From positions 1 through 44,590 of the forward strand of contig CAILLA010000158.1 of NCBI GenBank assembly GCA_903834925.1: a DNA stretch of 44,590 nucleotides, written 5' to 3'. A program made the position numbers and the translations under genes. Under the pieces are notes generated by a model. The model had not been told where the DNA came from and did no database searches. It saw only the letters and a program-made list of their open reading frames with translations. Origin of the DNA: an uncultured Schlesneria sp. Its GTDB lineage: Bacteria; Planctomycetota; Planctomycetia; Planctomycetales; Planctomycetaceae. Below, one piece after another: positions 6,524 through 29,909 of the stretch. The first letter of the stretch is position 1, and every line of letters begins with the position of its first letter.

Positions 6524-9500
6524 TTAAGGGGTTTCGATTAGTAGCGACAGCACAGCCGACGCGTAGACTCGATGGCCGAAGTCGCTGGGGTGGTTGACTC
6601 CGTTGCCGGTGAGGTCGCAGTCTCGTTTTCGCCTCAGCATTTCGGTCCACAACGTGGTCAGGTCGGCCAGGGCGACTCCGTCGCCGCAGAGCGATTGCAA
6701 CGCTTCACGGTATTTCGGAAACATTTCGCGTGGCGTGTGTGTCCATTGATCGTTGCCGACCATGGTTGCAACGAGGATAATTTCCGCTTGGGGCTTTGCC
6801 GATTTGATGCGTGTGATCATTTGCTGAATCCCGTCGCGGTAGGCGTCCGGGTTTCGGCGACCGACGTCGTTCATGCCATATGCGATAATAACGAGGTCCG
6901 GGTTCGATTCGAGAAGCTTATCGAGATCAGCGAGTCCGTTGGGGACACCCCAGCCCCCGACAGCTCGATTGATCAAAGCGACTTCGCCGCCGTAACTGGC
7001 TCGCAATTGAGCCGCGATCAGATCGGGGTACATCGGCATATAGGGAGAAGCTCCGACGAGCCCAGAAGCGTTTAAGCCATAGGAAATACTGTCGCCGCTC
7101 ACGGCGATTGTCAGTTTTTGTTTGGCCTTGAGACGAGCCAAGGTCTTTGGCAGCTTGGAAGCGTCGAATTTCGGTGTCCCTTCAGGCCAGTCGTTTGCTG
7201 TGCGAATATACGTTACTTCGATCTGTTGATCGTGAAACCAGTGTCCGTTGTCGAAGAGCAGGTGAGTTTCCGGATCACCGAGTTTATGTGGCAGTGCACA
7301 AGGGACCGCTGGCTGTGCTCCGCCAGCCCAGACGGGTCGGGCACCCCGTGGCATGAACAGGTCAGAACCTTTCAGATAAGGGATTCTCGACTCTTCGGTG
7401 CGAACAATCTGTTTCCCGTCGGCGGAACGAGTGAAGTCGATTCCTTCCTGGAACTGTTGACGTCCATCAGCCGTGTGGAGAGCAAGAATTTTCGTTGTGG
7501 GAAACAACAGCTTGCCTGTCGCAGGCTGGTTCACGTTGTCTTCGACACAAAGTACGCTTTCGCGGAAGACGATCCCTGAACGCCAGAACGGTTCGAGGAG
7601 ATGCAGGTCGGGAAGCGTTTCGGCGACGGTAACCGGTTTGAGTTCAATCCGACGAACATCCATCACGGCGACACCGACCAGCTGTTGCGGTTTGACCGTC
7701 AGGGTGTATCGACCTGGTTTATCGAGAGTCACGATTCCCAAGTCTTGCGGGACGAAGTTTTGAAAGTGGCCGGTCCCTGGGACCTTCAGGGGCAGTGTCT
7801 GTCCGGCGACTTCAAAGTTGACAAGGCTACCTCCGCTTGTACCGCAACCGACATGTGGCACGAGATGAAAACGGCCCGGCTTTTTTAACGTGAATTCATA
7901 ACTGGCCCAGTCGTCCTTTTTCACCCAGTAGCCGATCGTGTCCTTGTTTGGAAGCGGTTCATAACGGAGCATCACGCCGAAGACGTCGGCGGTACTTGAT
8001 GCCATCATCACTGAGCCATCGTCGGCCTGGAGATTCGGGGCATAGCCTGGGTTCTCCGTTGGCATCTTTGCACCGACCGCTTCTCGCCATTTAGCCAGTT
8101 TTGCCGCGAGATCCTTCGCGATATCCGCCTTTTCTTCGATGAAGTTCTGTCCTTCGCCTCCGTTTTTGTTGACGTTAAATAATTCGCGTCGACCGGTAAG
8201 GGCTCCGGCCTGAGCGTTGCTCGAAGCATCGTGGGGCGTTGTTTCGTAGTACTCGATCAACTTCCAATCGCCCGCTCGAATGGCACCACCCGGTTTCGCA
8301 CCGGCGTTGACATTGTAGTGCGGAAAGTGCCAGAACAAAGCTTCGCGAGAAATTTGCCCGGTCCCTTTCAACAACGGTAACAAACTGACTCCGTCCAGCG
8401 ACACCTGCTTAACGGCTCCGTTGCATGCCTCAGCGATCGTCGGAAATAAGTCGAGACACGACACGATTTCGTCATTCGTCGAACCCGCTTTGACAACGCC
8501 GGGCCAGGTCACAAGCAGAGGAACCCTAAGCCCCCCTTCGTACAGATGTCCCATGCCATCTCGTAACGGCGCGTTGGATGTGGACGGAATGATCTGACCG
8601 TTCCCATTACAAACGCCGCCATTATCAGACGTCAGCAGGATTAGCGTGGTCTTTGAAAGTTCGAGATCATTAAGCGTTTTCAAAACGCGGCCGACGGCTG
8701 CGTCCATGCTTTCAATCATCGCGGCAAAGTTGGGATTGATCTGGGAACCATTCGGTTCGCTCGGCATTTTTCCGTACTTGGCGACAATTTCTGGTTTGGG
8801 ATTGGCGGGCATATGAACCGCGAAGTGCGGCAGATAGAGAAAAAATGGCTTAGATTTGTGGTCGGTAATGAATTTCTCGGCTTCGGAGGCCAATCGATCT
8901 GTCAGGAACTCGCCGTCCGGCGCCTGCTCAAGTCCGGGCAGCACGTTTCCTGCCGGGTCGGTGTACGGTGCCACATCGCGATAGGGAACACTCACGACAT
9001 CAATGCCAGCGACGCTGACATCAAAACCTTGTTCCTTCGGACCGAAGCCTTGTCCACCGAGATTCCATTTTCCAACCGAACCTGTTGCATAGCCGAGGGG
9101 CTTGAGAGCTTCCGCAATCGTGACTTCCGACAGCGGCAATTGCGGTGCAACTTCCGGCGGCTTCAAACGGCGGTTCGGATCATCCACTTTGCCCAGCACT
9201 GATGTCGTAATTCCGACTCGTTGCGGATATCGCCCCGTCATGATTGCTGCTCGGGTCGGCGACCCGACGGGCGCCGTAGCGTAGGCCTGAGTAAACCGCA
9301 TCCCGTCTGCCGCCAGGCGATCGAGATTGGGAGTTTTGTGAAACTTGCTGCCGTAGCAGCCAAGATCCGCCCAGCCGAGATCATCAACCACGATCAGCAC
9401 GACATTTGGTCGAGTCTCGTCCGCCGCCAGAACATTTCCGAGAGACATCAGGAACGAGAAAAACAGGATCGCTCCAATGGAAATCGATCCCGGATATCGA

Positions 9501-9553
9501 TTTTCGCAGGGAACTCGCGTGTGAATCTTGCCGAATTGGATGTTCAACGTCAT
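6524..9553 (-). CDS. Secreted sulfatase-like protein fused to an SGNH hydrolase domain; sulfatase site degenerate
   Basis: About 1009 residues from ATG 9553, which gives a signal peptide (hydrophobic ISIGAILFFSFLMSLGNVLA, residues 24-43). Residues 45-530 are an arylsulfatase-type alkaline phosphatase-fold domain. Metal ligands D57-D58 and D310-N311 are present, as is H247. However, the CxPxR motif that yields formylglycine reads GSPTR (97-101), with Gly instead of Cys/Ser, and the usual GKWHLG reads GKWNLG (161-166), with Asn instead of His. Residues about 570-695 look like a carbohydrate-binding beta-sandwich. After a beta-rich linker comes an SGNH/GDSL hydrolase domain (from about 808) with GDS at 820-822, GGWG near 866-869, YGMND near 892-896 and a C-terminal NHPSDFGH. 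The esterase is probably the active part, for example deacylating a sulfated or acylated polysaccharide (inference). An open frame extends to 9709, but family similarity and the signal peptide favour 9553. Confidence 0.88.
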   Translation of the reverse strand: MTLNIQFGKIHTRVPCENRYPGSISIGAILFFSFLMSLGNVLAADETRPNVVLIVVDDLGWADLGCYGSKFHKTPNLDRLAADGMRFTQAYATAPVGSPTRAAIMTGRYPQRVGITTSVLGKVDDPNRRLKPPEVAPQLPLSEVTIAEALKPLGYATGSVGKWNLGGQGFGPKEQGFDVSVAGIDVVSVPYRDVAPYTDPAGNVLPGLEQAPDGEFLTDRLASEAEKFITDHKSKPFFLYLPHFAVHMPANPKPEIVAKYGKMPSEPNGSQINPNFAAMIESMDAAVGRVLKTLNDLELSKTTLILLTSDNGGVCNGNGQIIPSTSNAPLRDGMGHLYEGGLRVPLLVTWPGVVKAGSTNDEIVSCLDLFPTIAEACNGAVKQVSLDGVSLLPLLKGTGQISREALFWHFPHYNVNAGAKPGGAIRAGDWKLIEYYETTPHDASSNAQAGALTGRRELFNVNKNGGEGQNFIEEKADIAKDLAAKLAKWREAVGAKMPTENPGYAPNLQADDGSVMMASSTADVFGVMLRYEPLPNKDTIGYWVKKDDWASYEFTLKKPGRFHLVPHVGCGTSGGSLVNFEVAGQTLPLKVPGTGHFQNFVPQDLGIVTLDKPGRYTLTVKPQQLVGVAVMDVRRIELKPVTVAETLPDLHLLEPFWRSGIVFRESVLCVEDNVNQPATGKLLFPTTKILALHTADGRQQFQEGIDFTRSADGKQIVRTEESRIPYLKGSDLFMPRGARPVWAGGAQPAVPCALPHKLGDPETHLLFDNGHWFHDQQIEVTYIRTANDWPEGTPKFDASKLPKTLARLKAKQKLTIAVSGDSISYGLNASGLVGASPYMPMYPDLIAAQLRASYGGEVALINRAVGGWGVPNGLADLDKLLESNPDLVIIAYGMNDVGRRNPDAYRDGIQQMITRIKSAKPQAEIILVATMVGNDQWTHTPREMFPKYREALQSLCGDGVALADLTTLWTEMLRRKRDCDLTGNGVNHPSDFGHRVYASAVLSLLIETP

Positions 9554-9690
9554 GCTCCTGTGGGAGTCGTGGGTAGGTAATGTGAGGGGGAGACGCACAT
9601 GACAAAGAGTATCGCGTGTCACTCCCCTGTGGAACTGATTGGCTAATTGATTGTTTCGAACAATTGGCGGATCTTTATAAGGACAATGGC

Positions 9691-10815
9691 ATGTCGTTGC
9701 GGCGCACACCTCTTTTTGATTGGCACACGAATCATGGCGGCCGAATGGTGGAATTCGGTGGTTGGGAAATGCCAGTCCAGTACACGAGCATCGTGGACGA
9801 ACACCATACCGTGCGAAAGGCTGTCGGGCTATTCGATATTTCGCACATGGGCCGGTTGAGTTTTATTGGCCATGATGCCGCTAGACTATTGGCTCATTTA
9901 CTGACGTGCCGAATCGACAATCTCGTCGACGGCCAGATTCGATACGGACTGGTCTGTAACGATGTTGGGGGAATTCTCGATGACGTGCTCGTCAATCGAA
10001 TTGATGCGACATCGTATGGACTCGTCGTCAATGCCAGCAATCGCGAGAAGATTGTTGATTGGATCGGGAAACGAACGTCGGATATTGCCGCCGCAAATCA
10101 AACGCTCGATCTTCGTTTCGAAGATCACACGCTCGATACGGCAATGATCGCCGTTCAAGGGCCGCTGGCACTGAAACTCGTCAATCAAGTGACAGGTGAG
10201 AGCTTTGACTCGATGCGGTACTACACCGGTCGAAGTGTTAAGCTCGATGGGGTGCAAGTCTTCGTCAGTCGAACTGGCTACACCGGGGAAGATGGCTTTG
10301 AACTGATTGTTCCAAACGCAACCACAACTTACTTGTGGGAAGCGTTCATGGCATCTGGTAAGGATATTGGCATCAAACCCTGTGGACTCGGGTGCCGTGA
10401 CACGCTTCGTCTTGAAGCCGCCATGCCGCTTTACGGCCACGAATTGTCAGAGTCGGTCGATCCACTAACGGCTGGACTCGGTTCTTCCGTCAAATTGGAC
10501 AAACCAGAGTTCATCGGTCGTGAAGCACTCGCCAAAACTGCAGAAACGGCGAATCGAAACGTTCGTGTCGGGGTAAAGCTAAGCTCGCGACGGATCGCTC
10601 GAGAGCACAGCGAAATCTTTGTTGGAGCGGAACGAGTCGGCGAAGTGACGTCGGGAACATTTTCACCGACGCTGGAACAGGCCGTCGCAATGGCGTATGT
10701 CACTGCCGAGCAGTCGAAAGTTGGTACGTCCGTCGAAATCGATATTCGTGGAAAGCGTGAAGCGGCAGAAGTCGTCGCGCTCCCATTCTATAAGAGGGCC
10801 AAACTTGGATCGTAA
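9691..10815 (+). CDS. gcvT: Glycine cleavage system aminomethyltransferase GcvT
   Basis: T-protein of the glycine cleavage system; it moves the methylene group from the aminomethyl-lipoyl H-protein to tetrahydrofolate. It has 374 residues, the standard length, from ATG 9691. Start and motifs fit: SLRRTPLFDWHTNHGGRMVE at the N-terminus, VGLFDISHMGR near residue 45, VFVSRTGYTGEDGFELIVP near 190, and CGLGCRDTLRLEAAMPLYGH near 230. The H and P proteins are not nearby, so the cassette is split. The following Fe-S gene starts inside the last codons of this one. Stand-alone GcvT-like proteins can have other roles (YgfZ, sarcosine oxidase-type), but the full-length match favours true GcvT. Confidence 0.9.
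   Translation: MSLRRTPLFDWHTNHGGRMVEFGGWEMPVQYTSIVDEHHTVRKAVGLFDISHMGRLSFIGHDAARLLAHLLTCRIDNLVDGQIRYGLVCNDVGGILDDVLVNRIDATSYGLVVNASNREKIVDWIGKRTSDIAAANQTLDLRFEDHTLDTAMIAVQGPLALKLVNQVTGESFDSMRYYTGRSVKLDGVQVFVSRTGYTGEDGFELIVPNATTTYLWEAFMASGKDIGIKPCGLGCRDTLRLEAAMPLYGHELSESVDPLTAGLGSSVKLDKPEFIGREALAKTAETANRNVRVGVKLSSRRIAREHSEIFVGAERVGEVTSGTFSPTLEQAVAMAYVTAEQSKVGTSVEIDIRGKREAAEVVALPFYKRAKLGS
10792..10798 (+). promoter_or_regulatory. Ribosome binding site deciding a TTG start
   Basis: AAGAGGG lies 6 bases before TTG at 10805, within the end of gcvT. No ATG in the right frame gives a plausible Tat signal peptide without a long extra N-terminus, so this site supports the TTG start of the 2Fe-2S subunit and translational coupling to gcvT. 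Confidence 0.55.
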
Positions 10816-11428
10816 CCATATCAATCGAAGCGGGCCGGGATTCAGCCGTCGTGAATTTCTGAAAGGCTCGGGTGCCGCAGTCGTCGTCGGGGCCGCAGCC
10901 ACATCCGCAGTGGAAGCACCGCTGGAAGCTCAACAGCCTGCGACGAAAATCATTTCGGCGGGACCTCATACGATCACACTCAACGTGAACGGCGAGAATA
11001 AGCAAGTCACTGTCGAGCCGCGGGTCCTGTTAATCGACGCCTTACGGAACGATTTGAATCTGACCGGCTGTAAGGATGTTTGTGATCGTTCGACCTGTGG
11101 TGCCTGTACGGTCTTGATCGACGGAAAGCCGGTTTACGCGTGTACTCGGTTTGCAATTGAAGTTGTGGGACAAAAAATTGACACGGCGGAATCACTATAT
11201 TCTCCCGAGAAAACCGATGATGTCGTGACGGCCTTCTGTAAGCATGACGCGATTCAGTGTGGTTTCTGTACCCCCGGTTTCGTGATGACGGTACGAGGAT
11301 TCTGTGACCAGAATCCCGGCGCAAGCGAAGAAGCGTGTCGTCGCGCGTTGGGGGGGAACATCTGCCGATGTGGAACATACGACGGTGTTTTGAAGGCTGC
11401 GTACGACACGGCCCAGATTGTTCGATAA
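10805..11428 (+). CDS. 2Fe-2S subunit of a xanthine dehydrogenase-family enzyme, Tat-exported
   Basis: Small electron-transfer subunit, about 207 residues from TTG 10805. It has a twin-arginine signal (SRREFLKGSGAAVVVGAAAT) near the N-terminus. A plant-type ferredoxin domain follows with ligands in CDRSTCGACTVL and VYAC. The C-terminal helical domain binds the second 2Fe-2S cluster through CGFC and CRC (HDAIQCGFCTPGF; GGNICRCGTY). It passes electrons from the molybdenum centre to FAD or an external acceptor. The Mo subunit gene follows after a 133-base gap holding a repeat, then the FAD subunit. Neither partner has its own signal peptide, so the complex is probably exported folded with this subunit as carrier (inference). 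Substrate unknown. Confidence 0.85.
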   Translation: MDRNHINRSGPGFSRREFLKGSGAAVVVGAAATSAVEAPLEAQQPATKIISAGPHTITLNVNGENKQVTVEPRVLLIDALRNDLNLTGCKDVCDRSTCGACTVLIDGKPVYACTRFAIEVVGQKIDTAESLYSPEKTDDVVTAFCKHDAIQCGFCTPGFVMTVRGFCDQNPGASEEACRRALGGNICRCGTYDGVLKAAYDTAQIVR

Positions 11429-11447
11429 ACGATGGCGACAGGTCTTG

Positions 11448-11486
11448 TGCCACTGCATGAACGTCTTCGGTCAAGCAGTGCTCTTC
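11448..11486. repeat. Repeat family A, single unit, inside the molybdoenzyme gene set
   Basis: GTGCCACTGCATGAACG is followed by TCTT and CGGTCAAGCAGTGC, then TCTTC. The hairpin spans 11451-11480, with the same 30-base layout and TCTT loop as the unit at 3805-3834 but a different stem sequence in the middle. It sits between the 2Fe-2S and Mo subunit genes, where it could trim or stabilise mRNA segments. Confidence 0.72.
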
Positions 11487-11561
11487 AGACGTTGCAAACC
11501 GTAAGAGGAATTCCGATAGACTTCGAAGCGATGGCGAAGTGCGATAAGAGGATAAAATCAG

Positions 11562-13730
11562 ATGGTCGAACGGAAAGTTGGTTGGGAACCACAAGGTTCG
11601 CATGCACTCATTGGTGGAGAGATCCAACGAGTGGATGGCAAAGTCAAAGCGTCCGGCCAGGCCAAGTACACGAACGATATCAACCCACCAGGAACGCTGT
11701 TTGCAAAACTGCTGACGGCACCGCACGCTCATGCGAAACTGGTTCTTCTGAACATCGACAAGGCCAAAGCGGTCAAAGGAGTAAAGTCCGTAATAGTAAT
11801 GGCAAAGTTGGGTGATGAGATCCGGTATGAAGGTTGGCCCATCGTTGCGATTGCCGCCGAACGACCTGAGTTTGCTGAAGACGGTCTGCGAGCCATTGAA
11901 TTCAAGTTTGAATCGCTACCGCATTTCGTTGACGGATTGGATCTCAAAGGAGCTGTCGAGGCAGACTTGGCTGCCGACGGCAAACCGCTGAAGCTGACGA
12001 AGTCGCTGGGAAAGTCTGAACAAGGGGACGTTGAAGTCGCGTTGAAGGAGGCCAAACACGTTCATGAGGGGTTTTACGGCGTACAGACGATCACTCACAT
12101 GAGCATGGAACCTCATGGGTCTCATGCCGCGTGGGACGGCGATCACTTAAACGTCGCGCTGTCGACGGAGAATGTCTCGGGAACATCAGGCCAATACGTG
12201 CAACCGGTCGGTGTCGAGGCTATGAACGTCAATGTTCGATGCGATTTTCTGGGAAGCGGTTTTGGTTCGAAGTCCACGGTTGATGTATGGGATGTCGCCT
12301 GTGCCAAACTGTCCAAAGTAACTGGTAAGCCAGTTCGGCTGATGCTGAGTCGTACCACCGAAATGCAAATCGCAGGTAACCGCCCGTCGGCCTTTGCTGA
12401 AGTGACCGTGGGCTGCGATGCCGAGGGGAACGTGACGGCTTGGGACAGTCGTCACTGGGGATCGAACGGTTTGGAGGGTTCGATCGTCGGTCTTGATGTC
12501 ACCCCTTATGTTTTTCGGCCTAAGAATCGTAAAAGCATCGCAACGGGAATCGCAACGAATTGCAGTCCCGAACGTCCCTGGCGAGCACCGCATCATCCAC
12601 AGGCTTGTGCCTACACGCAGACCGCACTGGATGACCTTGCCGCCAAGGCGGGAATCGACTCACTTCAGTTCTTTACGAAGAATCTGAATCTGACGAGTCT
12701 GCCTCATATCTATGAGCCGGAACTTGAAATCGCTGCGAAACTGATGGACTGGAAAGGGAAATGGCATCCACGCGGTAAGGGGGCAGGAAACGGTCCCGTC
12801 AAACGGGGCATCGGTGTTGCTTTGCATACGTGGAACGGCGCTGCAAATCAATCGAACGTGACGCTGAAAATCCATTCTGATGGGTCGGTGGAGGTCGTCA
12901 CGGGAAGCCAGGATGTCGGAACCGGAACGCGAACGTGTATTGCTCAAGTTGCTGCCGACACGTTTGGCGTATCGATGTCGGCGGTCAAAGTCTCACTCGG
13001 TTCGAATCAGTTTCCAAAAGCGGGAGCGTCTGAAGGAAGTTCGACAATCGGTGGTGTGACTGGTCCGGTCAGGCGAACCACTCAGCAGGCCCTTTGGAAA
13101 ATTCTCGATCTCGTCGCGATCAGGCACACAGTCGATGGAACGACGTTGGCCGCTCGCGATGGAAAAGTCTGGTCGGGCGATAAAGAGATCTGCACCTGGA
13201 AGCAGGCTGCGAGTCTGATTGGACCGATGGGCCTGGAACTTTACGGCGGACCTGTCACCGATGACGAAGGCTTGACGAACCATCAGGTGGGCGGTGTTCA
13301 AATGGCCGAAGTCGCTGTTGACACGGAAACCGGTGTAATACGGATCGTGAAGATGGTGGCCGTCCAGGATGCCGGGATGATCGTGAATCGATTGCTGGCT
13401 CGCAGTCAGGTCTATAGCGGTCTGATCATGGGGATCGCGTATTCCTTATGCGAGGAACGAATCATGGACAATAAAACGGGGCGGTTTATCAATGCGAATT
13501 TGAATGACTATAAGCTCCCGCGTATCGGCGATATTGGCGATCTTGTCGTCGAGTTTTACGAACCCGAAAGCGAATACAAACGGGGGGTCATCGGGTTGAG
13601 TGAGCCTCCTGTGATTTCCACTGGCGCCGCCATCTCGAATGCTGTGGCGAACGCTATTGGCGTACGAGTCCCCGTTCTTCCTTTGACGCCCAAGCGAGTT
13701 CTCGACGCTTTGAAAGGAGCCAAAGGATGA
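11562..13730 (+). CDS. Molybdopterin-binding subunit of a xanthine dehydrogenase-family enzyme
   Basis: Large catalytic subunit (722 residues) that holds the molybdenum cofactor and hydroxylates or oxidises its substrate. Residues about 15-125 form the a/b hammerhead domain (RVDGKVKASGQAKYTNDINP at its start). The Mo-binding part follows, with DFLGSGFGSKST near residue 230, RAPHHPQACAYTQTALDDLA near 345, GSQDVGTGTRTCIAQVAADT near 450 and GASEGSSTIGG near 490. The conserved glutamate near the C-terminus lies in GLSEPPVISTGAAISNAVAN. ATG 11562 is preceded by AAGAGGAT. No signal peptide is seen. Its stop overlaps the FAD subunit start by 4 bases (ATGA). Homologues act on purines, aldehydes or aromatic CoA thioesters; the sequence does not decide among them. 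Confidence 0.9.
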   Translation: MVERKVGWEPQGSHALIGGEIQRVDGKVKASGQAKYTNDINPPGTLFAKLLTAPHAHAKLVLLNIDKAKAVKGVKSVIVMAKLGDEIRYEGWPIVAIAAERPEFAEDGLRAIEFKFESLPHFVDGLDLKGAVEADLAADGKPLKLTKSLGKSEQGDVEVALKEAKHVHEGFYGVQTITHMSMEPHGSHAAWDGDHLNVALSTENVSGTSGQYVQPVGVEAMNVNVRCDFLGSGFGSKSTVDVWDVACAKLSKVTGKPVRLMLSRTTEMQIAGNRPSAFAEVTVGCDAEGNVTAWDSRHWGSNGLEGSIVGLDVTPYVFRPKNRKSIATGIATNCSPERPWRAPHHPQACAYTQTALDDLAAKAGIDSLQFFTKNLNLTSLPHIYEPELEIAAKLMDWKGKWHPRGKGAGNGPVKRGIGVALHTWNGAANQSNVTLKIHSDGSVEVVTGSQDVGTGTRTCIAQVAADTFGVSMSAVKVSLGSNQFPKAGASEGSSTIGGVTGPVRRTTQQALWKILDLVAIRHTVDGTTLAARDGKVWSGDKEICTWKQAASLIGPMGLELYGGPVTDDEGLTNHQVGGVQMAEVAVDTETGVIRIVKMVAVQDAGMIVNRLLARSQVYSGLIMGIAYSLCEERIMDNKTGRFINANLNDYKLPRIGDIGDLVVEFYEPESEYKRGVIGLSEPPVISTGAAISNAVANAIGVRVPVLPLTPKRVLDALKGAKG

Positions 13731-28581: not shown

Positions 28582-28735
28582 TGCGTCGTCCACTTTAATA
28601 TTCGGGTGCCACTGGATGACCGTCTTCGGTCACCCAGTGCTCTTCGATTGCCTCGAAAAATGGCAAGCCAGTGCGTCGCCGAAGACGCCGATGCAGTGGC
28701 AGAAAACCCGATCTTTAAGTCTTGACGACGCACTA
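28580..28735. repeat. Repeat family A, inverted pair with extended outer arms
   Basis: The inner pair (28605-28701) consists of GGTGCCACTGGATGACCG, a TCTT loop, CGGTCACCCAGTGCTCTTCG, then an inverted unit ending in GATGCAGTGGCA. Beyond it, CTAATGCGTCGTCCACTTTA on the left pairs with TTAAGTCTTGACGACGCACT on the right, making one larger imperfect palindrome of about 156 bases. It begins at the last codon of the DUF3500 gene. It is the same family as 19933-20032 and 36698-36797. Confidence 0.78.
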
Positions 28736-28773
28736 GGTTTTGCCGAAAAGTCGTGAGGTATGTATTTTCCACT

Positions 28774-29021
28774 GTCCTGGAAGGACTAAAGCGATTAGCC
28801 GGTGGTTGCGCGAAGCAACACCACCGGTTTAGGAACGATTTTAAGATTTGCATACGAGAAGGATGACAGAACTATTTGGCAGAGATTTCGGCATTTGACC
28901 TTAAGTTGTCGACCAGCCACGTTTTGCTGGAATCCTTCCAGGATTCAAGACATTTCGCTCCACACATCCGGTGGTGTCGCTTCGCTCAACCACCGGCTAA
29001 TTGCTGCAGTCCCTCCGGGAC
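28774..29021. repeat. Composite palindromic element, family B, copy 1
   Basis: Order of parts: GTCCTGGAAGGAC (28774-28786), GATTAG then a 29-bp palindrome with CCGGTGG and CCACCGG ends (28799-28827), a spacer, AATCCTTCCAGGATT (28931-28945), a second 29-bp palindrome (28968-28996) followed by CTAATT, then GTCCCTCCGGGAC (29009-29021). The second half mirrors the first, so the whole element is a loose 248-bp inverted repeat. Copy 2 at 33560-33802 has the same parts in inverted order. Confidence 0.8.
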
Positions 29022-29076
29022 GAAGACGGATATCACGCCCCACACGTACCAAAGGGTAGAGTCATCGCGAAACCAC

Positions 29077-29338
29077 GGGGACACAGCACGATCATGATTT
29101 CGCTGACATCGATTGCTGCGGCGACTTGGCGACCTTCAGACAAACTTCCGTCGTAACTGTCCCAGCAGACGCGAGTGAGAGTACGATTCCTCCGCAACTG
29201 GAAACGCCCGCGTTACCGAACGTGCAGTGTCCGTACGGTTCGTTTGCCGTGTCTTCTGTGTCCTCCGTGTCCAAAATCTCTTTAATCAGTAATGAATTGT
29301 ACACGGAGGACACGGACCAGGAACAATTCAAGGTCTGA
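29077..29338 (+). pseudogene. Decayed gene fragment, copy A of a tandem duplication
   Basis: DNA from 29077 aligns with DNA from 29357: of the first 49 bases roughly 38 match. Similarity continues patchily to the segment reading LETPALPNVQCPYGS here and PKRLAAPNVLCPHGF in copy B. After that point copy A carries a short inverted repeat (29258-29313), and then ends DQEQFKV-stop, which resembles PEQFEAR near the end of copy B. No start codon with a ribosome site is convincing and the early part has stops in the frame used later. I do not recognise the parent family. Confidence 0.45.
29258..29313. repeat. Hairpin with 13-bp perfect arms inside gene fragment A
   Basis: GTGTCCTCCGTGT (29258-29270) is exactly complementary to ACACGGAGGACAC (29301-29313) with a 30-base AT-rich loop. 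It lies where similarity between the two gene fragments breaks off, as if inserted there. Confidence 0.7.
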
Positions 29339-29356
29339 ATTCTCATGGCAAGAGGC

Positions 29357-29647
29357 TTGGGGACAAAGCACGTTCGTCATTCCGACGGCTTCGATTGCTG
29401 AGGCGACGCACTAAGCTCCGTTCGCAAGTTCGTCATAACTTTCGCATTAAAAACAAGTTATTGCATAGTACTTCCGCAGCCGAAACGCCTCGCAGCACCG
29501 AACGTGCTGTGTCCTCACGGTTTCCAAGAGGTACGGGATTCCGTCATTGAACGAGCACGACAAACCAAGACTCCGATCATTGTCTTCGCCGAAAATCGAA
29601 TCCAATCATTAACGCCGGAACAATTTGAAGCGCGCGAAAAGCGTTGA
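29357..29647 (+). pseudogene. Decayed gene fragment, copy B of a tandem duplication
   Basis: The 3' part (about 29480-29647) reads as plausible coding sequence ending in a stop: APNVLCPHGFQEVRDS, then RARQTKTPIIVFAEN and SLTPEQFEAREKR. Upstream of it the frame has no good start and contains stops, and the sequence resembles copy A. This looks like the 3' remnant of a gene whose 5' end is lost. Family unknown. From 29648 to 29909 I see no convincing gene or repeat. Confidence 0.45.
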
Positions 29648-29909
29648 GCACTAAAGCTTGGATGTGAATTCGGGTCCTTGCCCTCTCGATGCCAAAACGC
29701 TGACGATTTCAGACGCATCACACCCTGCCTGATTGGCGGCGAGAGAATCATTACGACAAAATGCGGTACGGATCGATTGTCCCGTTCCAAGCGGGCGGAG
29801 TCCCGAGGTCGAGTCGTCGACCATGCCGTGATCCGCATCGCTGTTGGCAAAACGACTCCCCGCATAACGGATCGGGTTCGAGTTTCATGATTGCGTCCAA
29901 CGGTTCGCC

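Follow-up and report, generated by a model that had tools for sequence, protein, structure and literature searches.

The closest solved structure to the sulfatase domain considered here is that of AMOR_S1_16A (PDB 9FO1), a kappa-carrageenan 4-O-sulfatase of family S1_16 according to PMC11760155. That paper gives Asp18, Asp19, Asp263 and Asn264 as the calcium ligands, Cys58 as the nucleophile and Lys287 and His201 as sulfate-binding residues, and calls Trp79, His125 and His149 typical of S1_16. A wider survey (PMC5066984) reports that the nucleophile was Cys in 78.9% and Ser in 21.1% of 4058 aligned sulfatases, that the motif Arg was 99% and Lys375 of AtsA 96% conserved, and that His115 is the catalytic base. 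The same survey mentions nine Planctomycetes/Lentisphaerae sulfatase sequences that lack the motif Arg and may be inactive, so inactive members of the family are not unheard of. In a literature search by titles and abstract starts, with most subscription papers outside its scope, no described pseudo-sulfatase was found. The subject of this study is a gene in a 44,590-nucleotide stretch of DNA from an uncultured Schlesneria sp. (contig CAILLA010000158.1, assembly GCA_903834925.1; hereafter the window). Its 1009-residue product joins an S1-type sulfatase fold without the nucleophile to an SGNH/GDSL esterase.

Pfam identified a Sulfatase domain at residues 49-377 of the window protein (195.5 bits), SGSH_C at 337-439 and Lipase_GDSL_2 at 820-996 (87.6 bits), leaving two stretches without a Pfam match between the sulfatase and SGNH parts. 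Structure 9FO1 matched residues 48-513 at E 5e-126, with a Foldseek TM of 0.84 by target length. By Pfam and by this match, homology to the formylglycine (S1) sulfatases held for the domain in both sequence and fold. The AlphaFold model of the whole protein was of modest confidence (mean pLDDT 67.4, pTM 0.54); in it the sulfatase fold was predicted to be kept. Residues that make such a domain an enzyme were absent: the nucleophile Cys/Ser, the active-site Lys and the catalytic His are Gly97, Met334 and Asn164. Two of the S1_16-typical residues, Trp and His, both present in the 42 Cys-bearing members of the family, were replaced by Ser118 and Asn164. The place of His149 was, by eye, not His in the Cys-bearing relatives inspected either. 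The D-D-D-N calcium ligands were present at the level of sequence as Asp57, Asp58, Asp310 and Asn311. Correspondences with 9FO1 (Asp57, Asp58, Asp310, Asn311, Gly97, Met334, His247, Ser118 and Asn164) were taken from a pairwise alignment.

A sequence-only reading of this DNA had reported Gly for Cys at codon 97, Asn for the His of GKWHLG, intact metal ligands and retained GDS and GMND motifs in the esterase. Each was confirmed at its codons (Table 1; esterase codons below). Additions to that account are the changes of Lys334 to Met and Trp118 to Ser and, spanning residues of about 514-645, a CBM6-like domain. Judged from these replacements, the sulfatase domain would be a pseudoenzyme without sulfatase activity.

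Among 15 genomes of the genus, 13 contained a match at E 1e-130 or better; 12 of these held the whole fusion, and one (G014) broke off where its contig stops, near residue 340 and ahead of any esterase part. No match was found in this search in G009 (4.7 Mb) or G004 (89% complete). Gly97, Ser118 and Met334 occurred together in 8/8 copies of one set (G000, G001, G002, G003, G005, G006, G007 and G014). Eight genomes thus form a clade that has Gly in place of the formylglycine precursor, and the SGNH fusion is seen in seven of them, the eighth copy ending with its contig. All eight copies retained Arg101 (the motif Arg), Lys162 and His247, and Ser98 was altered in three (G006, G003 and G007). The five other fusions (G008 and G010-G013) carried an intact site of Asp, Asp, Cys, Arg, Trp, Lys, His, His, Asp, Asn and Lys, and the same site was intact in 37/37 non-fused relatives.

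These residue counts cover 50 sequences: the eight Gly copies and 42 others (five fused and 37 non-fused). The non-fused set drew one sequence per genome from the 28 matching genomes that a search of the order gave beyond the genus, two from a search of the phylum and seven others. Seventeen late-added sequences entered the residue counts only and stood outside the trees, rates and invariant-column tests. In an alignment of 162 rows, residue 97 was C in 151, S in one and G in ten. All ten G rows belonged to this clade, as did all ten rows with M at position 334; three of the G rows are the window protein itself (P0001, L031 and L010, which are identical).

An error of sequencing or assembly, or a mutation confined to one genome, might be suspected, since the window is contig 158 in a 9.02-Mb assembly of 307 contigs. 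Such an error is refuted, because the same Gly, Ser and Met recur in eight species with varying synonymous codons, one of them having a single-contig genome (G003). Gly97 was encoded by GGG, GGC, GGT or GGA depending on the species, that is, by all four Gly codons, so the Gly persisted while the third base turned over. A wrong start or frame was also considered and rejected; the same frame recurred in 12 further members of the genus, with one copy truncated where its contig stops.

In the searches described here, the full-length architecture was not recovered beyond the genus. Eight full-length loci (L061-L068) comprised seven titled Schlesneria and one titled Planctomycetota bacterium. In the order search (170 genomes, four candidates scored per genome) full-length matches occurred only within the genus, and the outside matches listed stopped by residue 652. 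In the phylum sample (392 genomes, two candidates per genome) six gave a match at E 1e-140, the window's own being the sole full-length one. Scoring so few candidates per genome would overlook fusions built on a sulfatase less closely related. Other sulfatase-SGNH fusions were sought in seven fetched regions with long frames: in the six with frames of at least 700 residues, five frames had a sulfatase match, none had an SGNH match and one had no match, while the seventh (L215) held no frame of 700 residues and was left out of the Pfam scan. Two observations came from these long-frame regions. At L214:1139-3895 a sulfatase was followed in frame by a 3-keto-disaccharide hydrolase domain. In L210 and L211, stop-to-stop frames of 1011 and 1003 residues carried a sulfatase from about residue 570, the first half being without a Pfam match and possibly noncoding.

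Phylogenies grouped the fusions by the state of their site. In the sulfatase-domain tree the eight Gly copies split from all other sequences with support 99.9/100, and the five Cys fusions grouped together (92.1/94). The two sets also differed in location. The Gly copies adjoin the aminomethyltransferase gene gcvT. In the five Cys genomes the gcvT loci lacked a fusion gene within about 1.5 kb, and two NuoL/NuoM-like genes precede three of the five fusions. A gcvT tree of 14 genomes recovered the same two sets with support 100, and placed G009, which lacks the fusion gene, on the Cys side. Trees of the NuoL-like and NuoM-like proteins split likewise (support 100), with G004, also lacking the fusion gene, on the Gly side; the NuoL-like tree omitted G008 (short sequence), and the second NuoM-like copies of G012 and G006 were not used.

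Taken together, the sequences and trees point to fusion first and loss of the site later, probably once. In the simplest account, an S1_16-like sulfatase with a CBM6-like module would have been joined once to an SGNH esterase in the ancestor of the genus, its site intact, followed by vertical descent and a change of gene place in one lineage. In the gcvT lineage the site would then have been lost, probably in one episode, with Cys to Gly, Lys to Met and Trp to Ser in eight copies and His to Asn in six; the changes themselves are seen in the sequences, and their order is a reconstruction. G006 and G007, which retain the His, branched first among the Gly copies of the sulfatase tree with weak support (66.5/81), so the change of His to Asn probably followed the other three. 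The SGNH-only tree did not group G006 with G007 and instead placed G003 with G007 (85.2/67), which leaves that order uncertain. The alternative history, in which esterase and sulfatase were separate neighbours before the fusion, was rejected: no SGNH homologue was found at E 1e-5 in 12 neighbourhoods of non-fused sulfatases, some of them shortened by contig ends.

The earlier proposal of a conserved pseudo-enzyme stood in one part and was qualified in another. The dead site is shared by eight genomes and selection on the domain is strong, but fused homologues that keep Cys and His, which the sequence-only reading had named as grounds for refuting it, do exist, in five genomes. As these five form a separate group, they date the loss, and the conservation stands. 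All five Cys fusions also differed from 20 non-fused relatives near the pocket (Asp117 to Thr, Gly335 to Ser and Gln417 to Ala). Gln417 aligns with the sugar-contacting Gln370 of 9FO1, and the pocket-near changes hint at a possible change of substrate when the esterase joined.

Omega of the sulfatase domain was 0.109 among four close Gly copies and 0.092 among all seven, versus 0.054 and 0.055 in the Cys copies. For the SGNH catalytic domain the values were 0.040 and 0.042 in the Gly clade versus 0.038 and 0.043 in the Cys clade, and the CBM6-like module had the lowest omega of the four domains in the Gly clade (0.017-0.027). The dead domain is about twofold relaxed yet far from neutral, and purifying selection on it persists. 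Across 25 Cys sequences 100 columns were invariant, and 84 of these were intact in all seven full-length Gly copies, each of which could be aligned end to end in one open frame. The changed columns lay close to the former site: 12 of 16 were within four residues of an active-site residue, as against 23 of the 84 kept columns (Fisher p 0.0005). Changes fixed in all seven copies affected 3/11 active-site columns and 3/89 other invariant columns (p 0.017), a weaker test than that for any change; both tests treat related sequences as independent, and their p values are rough. Loss of the site with the rest of the domain largely conserved suggests a former enzyme that was kept for another job.

The reading that we favor, with a probability of roughly 60%, is that the domain is a natural pseudo-sulfatase kept as a scaffold or glycan-positioning domain for the esterase. 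It would most likely act as a rigid scaffold and glycan-contacting wing that, together with the CBM6-like module, places an acylated polysaccharide before the SGNH domain. The latter would carry out the only chemistry left, the removal of acyl, probably acetyl, groups. A more specific version is put forward only tentatively, namely a non-catalytic helper that recognizes or gates desulfated or never-sulfated glycan for the attached esterase.

The main rival is a vestigial domain: an unused sulfatase that is slowly eroding and is retained only through its linkage to the esterase and the demands of folding. The dead domain evolves faster than its active copies, and some species show further losses, of His164 in 6/8, of Asp58 in G007 and of Ser98 in G006, G003 and G007. 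Against erosion stand an omega that remains at 0.09-0.11, the 84 of 100 invariant positions intact across seven species, the whole-length alignment of 7/7 full-length copies in one open frame, and a Gly97 that is fixed despite its varying codon. We regard a vestigial domain as rather unlikely, though it is the strongest of the alternatives.

Several observations weigh against a retained scaffold or positioning role. Protein tree lengths for the sulfatase and SGNH domains were 1.72 versus 0.65 in the Gly clade and 0.65 versus 0.63 in the Cys clade, and by pairwise distances the sulfatase/esterase divergence ratio was 1.79 times higher in the Gly clade (bootstrap 1.27-2.57). A dead domain evolving about twice as fast as its active counterpart fits slow erosion as well. 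Part of the clustering of changes around the site is ordinary pocket evolution, since active fusions also alter invariant columns near it: in a control set of 109 columns that did not vary among 20 non-fused relatives, the Cys fusions changed nine (0/11 active-site residues, four near one) and the Gly copies 21 (five active-site residues, 15 near one). Glycan binding is a property that we infer for the dead domain in a protein where a CBM6-like module is already present. Finally, at the modest confidence of the model, the facing of the dead pocket toward the esterase could not be read.

Two further possibilities, both raised by the sequence-only reading, would put the old pocket itself to use. 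As a sulfated-glycan lectin, the dead domain would bind a sulfated sugar there, as Cys-to-Ser sulfatase mutants do in crystals, and present it to the esterase. By its record title, structure 6psm is of such a mutant, C77S of PsS1_19B, in complex with its glycan, and Asp57, Asp310, Asn311, Arg101, Lys162 and His247 are kept in 8/8 copies and Asp58 in 7/8. Yet all eight copies have Met for the sulfate-contacting Lys and Ser for the pocket-wall Trp, six have Asn for the catalytic His, and G007 lacks one metal-ligand Asp. With three sulfate- or sugar-site residues gone, classical sulfate binding is less likely, and the proposed sulfate-binding module lost support; we consider it improbable. Alternatively, the retained metal site with Arg and His might activate water, or a new nucleophile such as Ser118, to attack another ester. 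The same six residues kept in every copy and the new polar Ser118, fixed in 8/8, are in its favor. The old nucleophile is gone, Met stands for Lys, one metal ligand is lost in G007, and the remaining positions that are altered throughout the seven full-length copies now hold Gly, Met or small or hydrophobic residues (Thr in one copy). A different metal-dependent hydrolysis is thereby less supported than first proposed; the fixed Ser118 keeps it barely possible, and it is the more improbable of the two. A genome-wide loss of sulfatase maturation was not supported as a cause. Other sulfatases of the same genome carry Cys (26/28 own-genome rows, which cover part of 37 own-genome matches), and PF03781, the domain of the formylglycine-generating enzyme (FGE), had 32 matches, among which the true enzyme was not singled out. 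With Cys sulfatases and FGE-domain proteins present, maturation was probably not lost genome-wide.

In SGNH/GDSL enzymes, block I is GDS, block II a Gly, block III G-x-N-D and block V a His, usually with an Asp three residues before it. The window protein has Ser822 (AGT, of GDS), Gly866, Gly893-Met-Asn895-Asp896 (Asn895 AAC, of GMND) and His988 (CAC). Block V reads DLTGNGVNHP: Asp980 lies eight residues ahead of His988, and the usual place has no Asp. The same arrangement recurs in the aligned SGNH homologues, so it is probably no defect of the window protein. The esterase may remove an acyl, probably acetyl, group; an acetyl on a polysaccharide is a guess by analogy from the family and the CBM6-like module. 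Residues of about 650-810 correspond to the N-terminal region of an SGNH type that planctomycetes also have as a stand-alone protein. Elsewhere in planctomycetes the SGNH module was joined to a SASA esterase (L143, L150 and L152), to a cytochrome c (L155) or to a second SGNH domain (L141), and by its sequence matches it is a promiscuous fusion partner.

The CBM6-like assignment rests on a profile match of residues of about 514-645 to the agarase CBM6 2cdo (E 0.004) and on Foldseek matches to 2cdo/2cdp chains, with TM values (by target length) of 0.61-0.71. The Foldseek matches of this region, whose model pLDDT is 64, also took in larger glycoside enzymes and further beta-sandwiches, some of them not CBMs. 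No Pfam CBM match was found in the window protein at E 0.1. The leader was read by eye, along with an AlphaFold helix at residues 22-42, rather than with a signal-peptide program; the protein would be secreted by way of it.

An operon or polysaccharide locus around the window gene was considered as a clue to substrate and set aside. Its neighbors are gcvT, a xanthine-dehydrogenase-like set, a THUMP-like methyltransferase and an NHL-repeat protein, so the context does not reveal the substrate. From the end of gcvT, window positions 10697-13730 (+) encode a Tat-signal [2Fe-2S] protein and a molybdopterin-binding xanthine-dehydrogenase-like subunit, and the [2Fe-2S] gene also adjoins gcvT in L061, L062, L063 and L170. 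About 1.3 kb (28582-29909) of the window was without an open reading frame of at least 150 residues. The tRNA and Rfam scans of the window gave no match. Feature coordinates are collected in Table 1.

Table 1. Features of the fusion gene and its divergent neighbor, in window positions.
Feature	Positions	Strand	Evidence or content
Whole coding sequence, 1009 residues	6524..9553	(-)	N-terminal hydrophobic leader, putative pseudo-sulfatase, CBM6-like module, SGNH N-terminal accessory domain, SGNH esterase
S1-type sulfatase fold without nucleophile (putative pseudo-sulfatase), residues 48-505	8039..9412	(-)	Pfam 195.5 bits; 9FO1 match; omega 0.092-0.109
CBM6-like beta-sandwich, residues 514-645	7619..8014	(-)	Profile and Foldseek to 2cdo/2cdp
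Beta-rich domain preceding this SGNH type, residues 650-810	7124..7606	(-)	Alignment with stand-alone SGNH homologues
SGNH/GDSL esterase, residues 811-1009 (Ser822, Gly866, Asn895, His988)	6527..7123	(-)	Pfam 87.6 bits; motif alignment; codons
Codon 97 GGG, Gly for formylglycine-precursor Cys	9263..9265	(-)	DNA; Gly in 8/8 gcvT-linked copies, Cys in 42/42 others
Codon 118 TCA, Ser for S1_16 pocket-wall Trp (Trp79 of 9FO1)	9200..9202	(-)	Ser in 8/8, Trp in 42/42 others
Codon 164 AAT, Asn for catalytic His of GKWH (His125 of 9FO1, His115 of AtsA)	9062..9064	(-)	Asn in 6/8 gcvT-linked copies, His in G006, G007 and 42/42 others
Codon 334 ATG, Met for sulfate-contacting Lys (Lys287 of 9FO1, Lys375 of AtsA)	8552..8554	(-)	Met in 8/8, Lys in 42/42 others
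Metal ligands Asp57-Asp58 kept, GAT GAT	9380..9385	(-)	Asp57 in 8/8; Asp58 in 7/8, Asn in G007
Metal ligands Asp310-Asn311 kept, GAT AAT	8621..8626	(-)	8/8 Gly-clade copies
gcvT (aminomethyltransferase), divergent neighbor marking the Gly-clade locus	9688..10815	(+)	Pfam GCV_T; adjoins 8/8 Gly copies, 0/5 Cys copies

If the domain is such a non-catalytic helper for recognizing or gating glycan, a whole clade of sulfatases has been retired from catalysis and yet kept for a function, with the intact sister form as a built-in control. The genus also offers a clean natural experiment: one multi-domain protein occurs with a live-looking sulfatase in one lineage and with a dead one in the other, which is useful for asking about non-catalytic roles of domains in carbohydrate-active enzymes. 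Pfam-type counts of sulfatases would include this nucleophile-less clade, whose domain scored 195.5 bits against a cut-off of 25.

Among known systems, AMOR_S1_16A shares the metal ligands, the equivalent of His201 and the fold with the sulfatase domain of the window protein, while having Cys58, Trp79, Lys287 and His125 where the window protein has Gly97, Ser118, Met334 and Asn164; the 467-residue 9FO1 chain matches the sulfatase part only. Non-fused sulfatases with the CBM6-like region from other planctomycete genera (L043-L050, L196, L199-L209 and L217-L233) keep the site intact in 37/37, and their frame ends before an SGNH domain. The sulfatase and CBM6-like regions lay in one frame in 49 of the 50 rows, the exception being the cut G014 copy. 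SGNH esterases of planctomycetes that have this N-terminal domain too (L053, L079, L097 and L139-L163) were 41-56% identical across the SGNH region and shared GDS, GMN and NHP; of six scanned, three also carried SASA, one cytochrome c, one a second SGNH domain and one gave no further match, none being joined to a sulfatase. The Arg-less, putatively inactive sulfatases of PMC5066984 resemble the window protein in a broken C/S-x-P-x-R motif, but they lost the Arg and kept the nucleophile, whereas the window clade lost the nucleophile and kept the Arg. The sister fusions of the other lineage of the genus (L042 and L065-L068) have the same full-length architecture at 63-70% identity and differ in an intact CSPTR, GKWH and Lys and in their location away from gcvT.

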